A DNA stretch of 33,198 nucleotides, taken from NCBI GenBank assembly GCA_947587615.1, contig CANPYC010000023.1, positions 1 to 33,198 of the forward strand, read 5' to 3'. How positions within the stretch are numbered: the first letter of the stretch is position 1; each line of letters opens with the position of its first letter. Shown in pieces: positions 26,935 to 29,000 of this stretch. Under the pieces are notes generated by a model. That model worked only from the letters and a program-made list of their open reading frames with translations, had not been told where the DNA came from and made no database searches. Origin of the DNA: Candidatus Gastranaerophilales bacterium (lineage in GTDB: Bacteria; Cyanobacteriota; Vampirovibrionia; Gastranaerophilales; Gastranaerophilaceae). The position numbers and the translations under genes are program-made.

Positions 26935-27315
26935 ATGCAAACAAAAAACGATGACAAGATTGCTGCTGAAATTAAATTGATTGCCGGTTATATTCTAAAA
27001 GGCTTTTCTAATAATGAAATAGCAAACAAATTAAATTATTCAAAATCAACAATTAATAACAGAATAAATGTTTTATTCAACTCTTACAGGGTCAAAACAC
27101 GCTCAGAGTTTGTTATAAAATTTTGCAAGGCTGCTTTAAATACAAGCAAGCAAATTTTACAAGATTACAGAATAAAAATAAAAAATCTAAAGAAAACGAA
27201 TGAACAAATGAATTTTATTTTAACACAGCTGATAAAGTATAAATCTTGCAAAGAAAAAACCAACCTTATAATAGACAAGGTTGAAAAATATTTGAATAAT
27301 GTTTCCAATCACTAA
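26935..27315 (+). CDS. Small LuxR-type HTH DNA-binding protein without receiver domain
   Basis: A 126-residue protein. Residues 8-65 form a GerE/LuxR-type HTH: IAAEIKLIAGYILKGFSNNE, IANKLNYSKSTINNRINVLF, then YRVKTRSEFVIKFCKAAL. The C-terminal half is a lysine-rich helix (ILQDYRIKIKNLKKTNEQMN) that may be a coiled-coil dimerisation segment. There is no receiver or ligand domain, so activity must be set by level or by a partner. It is monocistronic, with a weak Shine-Dalgarno (GGATGA). Confidence 0.75.
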   Translation: MQTKNDDKIAAEIKLIAGYILKGFSNNEIANKLNYSKSTINNRINVLFNSYRVKTRSEFVIKFCKAALNTSKQILQDYRIKIKNLKKTNEQMNFILTQLIKYKSCKEKTNLIIDKVEKYLNNVSNH

Positions 27316-27375: not shown

Positions 27376-27450
27376 CTGGGTCCGGTGGGATTCGAACCCA
27401 CGACCAAGAGATTAAGAGTCTCCTGCTCTACCAGCTGAGCTACAAACCCA
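27376..27450 (-). tRNA. tRNA-Lys (anticodon CTT)
   Basis: A full cloverleaf on the minus strand. Acceptor stem TGGGTTT/GGACCCA. D arm AGCTCAGCTGGTAGAGC. Anticodon stem GGAGA/TCTCT with loop CTCTTAA, so the anticodon is CTT. T arm GTGGGTTCGAATCCCAC. The discriminator base is G and no CCA is encoded. Confidence 0.95.
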
Positions 27451-27550: not shown

Positions 27551-27625
27551 AAAAAAAAGCCGTCATAAGGCGGCTACTAGACTTGGGGAGGAGGTTTTGA
27601 ATAAGGGGTAAACCCTTATCAAATA
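27551..27625 (-). ncRNA. Candidate small RNA with anti-Shine-Dalgarno stretch
   Basis: Read on the minus strand. A hairpin ATAAGGG/CCCTTAT (27619-27601) comes first. An unpaired stretch follows with CCTCCTCCCC (27594-27585), complementary to Shine-Dalgarno sequences. A strong intrinsic terminator closes the RNA: AGCCGCC/GACGGCT with a 4-base loop and eight T's (27575-27551). No gene ends here on the minus strand, so the terminator needs its own transcript. A start site near 27620-27650 is guessed, and no clear -35 is visible. Read on the plus strand, the same bases would give GGGGAGGAGG before a tiny TTG-start frame, which I think less likely. Confidence 0.5.
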
Positions 27626-27746
27626 TTTATATTTGTATTTTCGACACTTAAAAATAAACCTTTAGATTAATTTTTAAATATTCATCCAAAAGAAGTAATT
27701 TTTAAAAAAAAGAAAAAAATTATATCATATTTGTTAAAATTAATGT

Positions 27747-28502
27747 ATGAAAAAAAGACTAGTATGTATTTTTCTGCTTGTGTTTGCGCTATTTAACAGC
27801 ATAAGCGCAACAGCCGCAACAAAATCAGCCAAAAAGAAAAATGCTCCGATAAAACATAAAATCGAATTTACAACAAGAGATAAATTTATTCTCGTAGGGG
27901 ACTTGTATATGCCGCAAACGCCAACATCAAAGCCTTTAGTCGTTTGTCTGCATTCTTATTCCATGAATTCTCTTGTGTGGACTAACCTGGCTCAAGCCCT
28001 CAGAAACAAAGGCTATAACGTTTTAGCAATGGATTTAAGAGGTCATGGCAGAAGTGTTTATAATGAAGACTTAAAGCTAAAATCAAGATTTTATTTTAAA
28101 ACGGAAGTTTGGCAGCGCCTGCCGAAAGATGTTATCGAATCAATAAATTATGTTAAACAAAACTATCCGAGAGTTAACACAAATCAGGTAATAATAGTCG
28201 GCTCGGATGTTGGCGCAAGCGCAGGAGTTATTGCAGCACTTACAATGAGAGAAGTGCCTAAAAAAATGGTTTTAATTTCACCCATGCTTGAATTTAAGGG
28301 GCTTGGTATGCCGGTTAGAACGCCGAAATTTTATGATACTAAAATTATGATATTAATTCCCAAGACAGATAGAATTATGATTAATTTTTATACTAAAACC
28401 CCTATGACAATCAAACAGTATCAATCGGGAGGTCCGGGTAATCAGCTTTTAAAGGTAAACCCTGATAGCATTAATGAAATTGTGAATTTTATAATTAATT
28501 AA
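27747..28502 (+). CDS. Exported alpha/beta-hydrolase-fold protein with altered catalytic residues
   Basis: A 251-residue protein. Residues 1-24 are a signal peptide. The fold is clear: PLVVCLHSYSMNSLVW (oxyanion region), GYNVLAMDLRGHGRS, then the nucleophile elbow VIIVGSDVGASAGV and the late strand KKMVLISP. The elbow reads G152-S-D154-V-G156, so aspartate occupies the usual serine position. The region where the catalytic histidine normally sits (GHG) reads GGPGNQLL, with P230. Haloalkane dehalogenases and epoxide hydrolases use Asp but keep the His, so this protein may be inactive or work differently. There is no Shine-Dalgarno; TAAAAT (27735-27740) lies six bases before the ATG. Confidence 0.75.
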   Translation: MKKRLVCIFLLVFALFNSISATAATKSAKKKNAPIKHKIEFTTRDKFILVGDLYMPQTPTSKPLVVCLHSYSMNSLVWTNLAQALRNKGYNVLAMDLRGHGRSVYNEDLKLKSRFYFKTEVWQRLPKDVIESINYVKQNYPRVNTNQVIIVGSDVGASAGVIAALTMREVPKKMVLISPMLEFKGLGMPVRTPKFYDTKIMILIPKTDRIMINFYTKTPMTIKQYQSGGPGNQLLKVNPDSINEIVNFIIN

Positions 28503-28527: not shown

Positions 28528-29000
28528 ATACGTACTTAAGGTTAAAGATTGTCACAGTACTCACTTAGTCTCACACACGTCATCAGCAGGGGTGCGGAAT
28601 TATAAAAGGATAAGAATAAAAAAGGGTAACCCATGGCAATCTTGCTGAACCGGTACTCGTTCTAAGTGTAATGGTAGACTAAAGTCTACCCTGCTTTCTA
28701 TACCTTATCTAATGATATAGAATTACAAACGGTGGAGCGAAGTCCACCCTGCGGATACTAAACTGCTGCGGTGCAGAATTATAATTGTAGGGTAGACTTT
28801 GGTCTGCCATCCTAAAACAGACACTCACAATCACAGTGCAGAGGTGTTCCAAACCGTAGGGCAGACTTTAGTCTACCATCACAAAACTACGGATACTAGG
28901 GCAGAGAATTGCAATTGCAGGGTAGTTATAAACGGTGGACTAAAGTCCACCCTACGACGGAGAACTGTAATTGCAATTGTAGGGTAGACTTTAGTCTACC
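28528..29000. repeat. BIME-like palindrome cluster E (six copies)
   Basis: Copies: 28673-28690 (forward), 28731-28748 (forward, GGTGGAGCGAAGTCCACC), 28791-28808 (reverse, two changes), 28860-28877 (reverse, GGCAGACT), 28934-28951 (forward, GGTGGACT type) and 28983-29000 (reverse). A broken half-copy (AGGGTAG) sits at 28919-28925. Composite pairs 28731/28791 and 28934/28983 repeat the arrangement seen at 18937/18989 and 18638/18681. The CCATGGCAATCTTGCTGAA flank at 28631-28649 recurs in cluster D. No gene is visible. The cluster separates the hydrolase from the convergent YitT gene. Confidence 0.9.

Follow-up and report, generated by a model that had tools for sequence, protein, structure and literature searches.

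A putative FliA-dependent small RNA with an anti-Shine-Dalgarno seed in Candidatus Gastranaerophilales

Results

We analyzed a stretch of 33,198 nucleotides (nt) from a Candidatus Gastranaerophilales bacterium (assembly GCA_947587615.1, contig CANPYC010000023.1, positions 1 to 33,198), and "the window" below refers to this whole stretch. Its minus strand almost certainly holds, at about 27631-27551, a real and stand-alone gene for a regulatory RNA of about 80 nt that was not described before. The RNA gene, its structure, and the type of its promoter appear to be well supported by sequence comparison. We infer that the gene is transcribed, that the RNA pairs with mRNAs, and that the direction of regulation is repression; its mRNA partners are likewise putative. 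We think that the RNA is probably a FliA-dependent, trans-acting small RNA (sRNA) that blocks ribosome binding, with fliA as one likely target within the family.

Under this model, RNA polymerase carrying FliA would start at TAAAGGTT-N11-GTCGAAAA and would stop at an intrinsic terminator. Two hairpins would keep a 20-nt CU-rich seed open, and the seed would pair with mRNAs at their G-rich ribosome-binding regions, which would prevent the loading of 30S subunits. In the window's family, the seed would sit on the leader of fliA. This would give a negative feedback, with FliA activating the RNA and the RNA repressing FliA, which would damp the synthesis of FliA.

Conservation of the seed and the structure

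The invariant part of the RNA is the seed, not the stems. The core AACCUCCUCCCC(A/G)AGUC is invariant among copies, and A27595-C27580 (ACCUCCUCCCCAAGUC) is kept outside the order as well. The first-pass annotation, which was made from the letters of the window, had pointed to a single-stranded CU-rich stretch complementary to Shine-Dalgarno (SD) sequences, and CCUCCUCCCC (27594-27585) is indeed wholly unpaired in the predicted fold. The fold of the locus has a z-score of -2.9 against dinucleotide shuffles, and 0 of 200 shuffles were equally good. Across 140 distinct copies, the 42 nt that precede the seed have a mean fold z-score of -3.8, as compared to -0.2 for a control stretch upstream. Pair tables for the 5' hairpin, made within groups of equal length, contain G-U and two-sided changes that preserve pairing. 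In the terminator, both partners vary at pairs 32-45 and 33-44, and the pairing rate of 88.6% drops to at most 67% if the partner is slid. So the covariation in related genomes that the annotation had proposed as a check is present in the upper pairs of the terminator, and the pairing of the 5' hairpin is kept despite changes.

Some details of the annotation have to be corrected. It described a terminator with a 7-bp stem, a 4-base loop, and eight T's, preceded by another 7-bp hairpin. The terminator is intrinsic and does have the 4-base loop (TTAT) and the eight T's (27558-27551), but its hairpin (27575-27558) has 6 pairs that are broken by a C.A mismatch instead of a clean 7-bp stem, and the first of the T's pairs with A27575. 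Upstream of the terminator, the other hairpin (27623-27596) does exist, with 11 pairs and a bulge rather than 7 bp. The claim that the terminator has no minus-strand gene to end does hold, as there is no upstream open reading frame (ORF) on that strand that it could serve. Translation of the plus strand through the site had been named as an observation that would speak against an sRNA, and no plus-strand ORF of at least 40 amino acids spans the site. The word CTCCTCCC has 19 sites in the genome, and the RNA locus is the sole one that lies outside of long open frames and has the layout of hairpin and terminator. The exact complement GGGGAGGAGG is present once in the genome, at the RNA gene itself, so we rejected it as a target site.

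The promoter and FliA

Upstream of the copies we find TAAAG(TTT)-N11/12-(G)(C/T/A)CG(A)(T/A)A, or for short, TAAAGTTT-N11/12-GCCGATAA. By its sequence, this element is the form of promoter that is recognized by sigma-28 (FliA/WhiG), at a suitable distance before the RNA. Promoter scores of at least 16 were obtained for 63% of the 140 copies, versus 0.18% of shuffled and 0% of reversed sequences. Positions 3 and 4 of the -10 element are C in 138 and G in 136 of the 140 copies, respectively. The promoter drifts in part of the family (-35 element TCAAGAAA or AAAAGTTT, -10 element CCGTATAA). As a positive control, the flagellin genes of several relatives bear the same promoter (for example, TAAAGTTT-N11-GCCGATTA in G039).

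The genome itself encodes FliA/WhiG (243 bits; the curated cutoff is 189.6), as do 324 of the 382 genomes in our sample of the class, by the same cutoff. A FliA match is present in 279 of the 282 genomes with the RNA (the three exceptions are G013, G367, and G397), and about 54 genomes from outside the order that lack FliA include 0 with the RNA. Among 58 relatives, and leaving aside the outgroup G057, seven have no match to flagellin, which is the sole flagellar gene that we searched for (G010, G028, G029, G030, G033, G034, and G047). All seven have FliA and six have the RNA.

Distribution of the RNA

With blastn against the 58 related genomes, the element is found in every genome of the same genus, and a core of about 50 nt is found in other families of the order. 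In public genomes, a 24-nt core pattern has over 115 matching stretches. The titled records are almost all Candidatus Gastranaerophilales or Melainabacteria; a few titles name Clostridia, Fusobacterium, Acinetobacter, or a Muribaculaceae bin, which we take to be mislabelled bins. We also built a covariance model from the seed and the terminator only, because the 5' hairpin was misplaced in the first automatic alignment; support for that hairpin comes from folding and pair counts and is separate from the model. The model finds the RNA in 282 of the 382 genomes of the class sample. These include 265 of 276 from the window's family, 10 of 10 from four further families that belong to the order, and 7 of 96 from outside the order (families f9 and f15). 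The last seven have E-values of just 5e-5 to 6e-4, and on reading, their seed is the same (AACCUCCUCCCCAAGUC) and they also have a 5' hairpin, a terminator of divergent sequence, and a sigma-28-like promoter, so these appear to be clear distant homologs. With this model, other classes had no match in a sample of 386 genomes from across the phylum; the matches were within the order only.

Some loci have tandem RNA genes: three copies in L049 (G049) and two in L041 (G055) and in L056 (G046). L052 (G041) is also among the loci with two or three tandem copies. Every one of these copies has a promoter and a terminator of its own. Rfam 15, at gathering and relaxed thresholds, reports only the tRNA-Lys in the window and no family in six homologous loci, and we found no sRNA described for this bacterial group in open-licence papers. 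The annotation's proposal of a trans-acting sRNA with an anti-SD seed is supported by the invariant unpaired seed, the structure that is kept while its sequence varies, the RNA's own promoter and terminator in every copy, the tandem copies, and the lack of synteny with a tRNA. The annotation missed the sigma-28 promoter, the conservation across the order, and the candidate target fliA. That the RNA would block ribosomes, as it also proposed, is suggested by complementarity.

Another candidate for a CU-rich RNA, which reads CCCCAA-AUCUCCUCCCAAGAUU and has a terminator after it, occurs exactly once each in 15 of the 58 relatives, with 0 in the control (L293-L307, L284; not in the window's genus). 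Its upstream region differs (TGTAAATTTTT..TTAA), and it occurs in G030 and G356, which both lack the first RNA. Its sequence is similar to the seed of the first RNA, and it may be a paralog.

Candidate targets

SD-type sites are in use in this genome: 42% of its leaders have an SD-like word, versus 2.7% for the control. The exposed CCUCCUCC would therefore be expected to compete for SD sites. In the genus, the leaders of fliA share a conserved GACA(U/C)UGGGGA element (GACAUUGGGGAA-type) about 16 nt ahead of the start codon, which is too far from the start for a normal SD and is complementary to the seed's UCCCCAAGUC. When about 10-21 local leaders per genome are ranked, fliA comes first in 21 of the 23 genomes from the genus; the weak rank in G045 and G040 came from a wrong start codon. 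In the window's own genome, fliA is 9th of 406 leaders, in a ranking that covers about one-fifth of the genome, and the co-fold binding energy of the seed and the fliA leader is -12.4 kcal/mol. UUGGG is found in 17/23 same-genus fliA leaders and in 14/18 fliA leaders from other genera of the family, versus 6/374 background leaders. Shuffled seeds matched the real seed's mean pairing with fliA in just 1 of 300 cases for the genus and 2 of 300 for the other genera of the family. On these comparisons, it is reasonable to treat fliA as a candidate target in the family; that it is a direct target strikes us as nearly a toss-up, leaning slightly towards no.

Several other leaders in the same genome are also predicted to pair with the seed, and two of them stand as examples here. 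The leader of a secreted protein of 139 amino acids, with AGACUUAGGAGG, reaches -20.0 kcal/mol, and that of a FlgG/FlgF-like rod gene (L340:1517, CUUGAUGGGGAGAAUAAAAUG) reaches -14.2 kcal/mol. The rod gene is a possible flagellar target.

In family f3, the fliA leaders (L235, L178, L175, L179, and L182) have GGUGUUGGUCUA / GGUAUUGGUCUA in common. This sequence is similar to the complement of AGACCAUACC, which is part of the RNA's 5' hairpin in that family. An alternative pairing of the RNA with fliA, via this hairpin, is possible there.

The locus and its surroundings

Table 1. Predicted features of the RNA gene and its upstream region (window coordinates)
Feature	Position	Strand	Basis
-35 element TAAAGGTT (sigma-28-type promoter)	27657..27664	-	Position and sequence conserved across 140 copies; TAAAG consensus
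-10 element GTCGAAAA (consensus GCCGATAA), 11-bp spacer	27638..27645	-	Positions 3-4 read CG in 136-138 of the 140 copies
sRNA transcript, about 80 nt	27551..27631	-	Predicted from promoter and terminator; start put about 7 nt past the -10 element
5' hairpin, 11 pairs and one bulge	27596..27623	-	Fold; kept in copies of differing sequence
Unpaired conserved seed ACCUCCUCCCCAAGUCUAGU, 20 nt	27576..27595	-	Invariant between families except for two positions with A/G changes
Intrinsic terminator AGCCGCC-TTAT-GACGGCT and T run	27551..27575	-	Upper pairs covary
Imperfect dyad, ATTACTTCTTTTGGATGAATATT region, about 15-20 bp upstream of the -35 element; possible regulator site	27677..27697	-	Conserved; judged by eye

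Dyads like the one in Table 1 (CTCCTCCATTTGGAGGAG, TCATACATTTGTATGA, TTTTGGATGAA) lie upstream of the sigma-28 -35 element in most copies, at a distance of about 15-20 bp, and in some relatives they are palindromic (e.g., CTCCTCCATTTGGAGGAG). A similar sequence, TTTAGATGATGACA, is found upstream of fliA (L224, L229-L263). The dyad upstream of both genes is possibly a shared regulator site or promoter element.

A hydrolase-like gene begins at 27747 on the plus strand, divergent from the RNA gene, and this placement is kept in 25 of 27 congeners. Next to the tRNA-Lys gene (27376-27450, minus strand), 26935-27315 (+) encodes a protein of 126 amino acids with, by eye, a LuxR/sigma-like helix-turn-helix region (FSNNEIANKLNYSKSTINNRINVLF). 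Short palindromes (GGTAGACTAAAGTCTACC, GGTGGACTTCGCTCCACC) cluster at 28540-28800 and have the look of a dispersed repeat; there is a similar one at G000:C33 near 466.

Discussion

Several observations weigh against a FliA-dependent sRNA that represses fliA. The putative transcription of the RNA rests on its promoter and its terminator. When we searched the window's own genome for the sigma-28 pattern, allowing up to 3 mismatches, there was no excess over the reversed control, so our call of the promoter rests on conservation and not on rarity, and the genes near the best sites genome-wide do not form a clear regulon. Families f10, f11, f12, and f14 have FliA without the RNA, and the co-occurrence of FliA and the RNA is confounded with phylogeny. 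The same-genus fliA leaders are not independent of each other. Outside of the family, the complement in fliA is absent (UUGGG is in 2 of 15 leaders, and shuffled seeds did as well in 69 of 300 cases), and we rejected fliA as an order-wide target. Because the seed is invariant beyond the family and the fliA match is not, fliA cannot be the sole reason for the seed's conservation, and other targets must exist.

This last point leads to another view of the same FliA-dependent sRNA, as a general repressor of many purine-rich ribosome sites, similar to Yfr1, for which fliA would be biologically irrelevant. A seed that does not change between orders, along with a fliA match that is limited to one family, is what this view would lead us to expect, and several leaders in the genome, including those of the secreted protein and the rod gene, pair as well as fliA does or better. 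Yet UUGGG is strong in fliA leaders across the family and its background is low, and we consider the general repressor to be a real possibility but not a likely one. Or, the RNA might bind a protein or act as a sponge for another RNA, so that its likeness to an anti-SD sequence would be a side effect. So strongly conserved an unpaired motif is unusual for a plain antisense RNA, as was argued for Yfr1 (PMC2190773), and Yfr1 is antagonized by another RNA, Yfr2 (PMC6778093). But there is no perfect 10-nt complement elsewhere in the genome, the A/G changes in the seed preserve pairing with U, and we identified no protein candidate, so a sponge or a protein binder seems improbable to us.

With the tRNA-Lys some 100 nt downstream and on the same strand, the element could be its leader, an attenuator, or a processing product; or, the terminator could belong to a minus-strand gene that was not recognized. 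However, the tRNA-Lys is absent downstream of the RNA gene in 27 congeners, a terminator lies in between, the upstream region has no minus-strand ORF, and the RNA has tandem copies elsewhere. The first-pass annotation had already assigned the tRNA to a separate transcript, which the lack of synteny and the intervening terminator support. We rejected the tRNA link, and we give explanations of this type very little credence. A gene for a small protein is harder still to believe in: a frame of about 19 codons that starts with UUG can be read through the seed, but it has no ATG, the conserved features are the structure and the seed, and close relatives differ by single bases in the length of the hairpin and of the terminator loop, which would break any frame.

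The RNA might be an ancient sRNA of the Vampirovibrionia that provides post-transcriptional feedback on its own sigma factor and that has persisted in several lineages after the flagella were lost, with FliA and the RNA now having a non-flagellar role there. We regard this scenario as rather unlikely. Genomes that keep FliA and the RNA but have no detectable flagellin raise the testable question of what a flagellar sigma factor does in these bacteria. We found no regulatory RNA described for these abundant and nearly uncultured gut bacteria, and this RNA would be a first handle on their post-transcriptional control. Also, its promoter could serve as a sequence-based readout of FliA activity that can be searched for in existing gut metatranscriptomes. 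Finally, a non-photosynthetic counterpart of Yfr1 raises the question of whether RNAs of this kind have a single origin or several in the phylum.

Yfr1 from photosynthetic cyanobacteria is the closest parallel in form. Yfr1 has a 5' stem-loop, an unpaired section of 16-20 nt with the ultraconserved undecanucleotide ACUCCUCACAC, and a GC-rich 3' terminator hairpin (PMC2190773). Our RNA likewise has a 5' stem-loop, an unpaired section of 20 nt, and a GC-rich 3' terminator hairpin, and in both, the two stem-loops flank a CU-rich ultraconserved motif (PMC2190773, PMC6778093). Yfr1 is also near-universal in its own, neighboring branch of the same phylum. On the other hand, the motif is ACUCCUCACAC in Yfr1 and ACCUCCUCCCC(A/G)AGUC here, and Yfr1 is not known to depend on sigma-28. 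As the defining undecanucleotide ACUCCUCACAC is absent (all copies read CCUCCUCCCC(A/G)AGUC), we do not file the RNA as Yfr1; at most, it may work in a Yfr1-like way.

The other parallels are in regulation, and no test that we applied indicates homology to the sigma-28-dependent sRNAs of Campylobacter or E. coli. In Campylobacter, CjNC1/CjNC4 and CJnc170/FlmR are independent short RNAs from sigma-28 promoters (PMC4626219, PMC11187230). CjNC1/4 are predicted to feed back on flagellar genes by pairing with ribosome sites, although their sequence and phylum are different and their predicted targets are sigma-54 genes rather than fliA. CJnc230/FlmE acts on a regulator of FliA (flgM), but it is RpoN/RpoD-dependent, is processed from the flgE transcript, and has CCUU as its anti-SD (PMC11187230). 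MotR, FliX, UhpU, and FlgO of E. coli are sigma-28-dependent sRNAs of the flagellar regulon (PMC10578931); these derive from untranslated regions, are associated with Hfq, and have other targets, whereas the RNA that we describe is a stand-alone gene with its own terminator. As in anti-SD sRNAs, its seed is unpaired in the predicted fold and complementary to SD-type sites, which its host uses. And as expected for a sigma-28-dependent sRNA, it has a TAAA(GTTT)-N11/12-GCCGATAA promoter at the right distance, in a genome that encodes FliA/WhiG.
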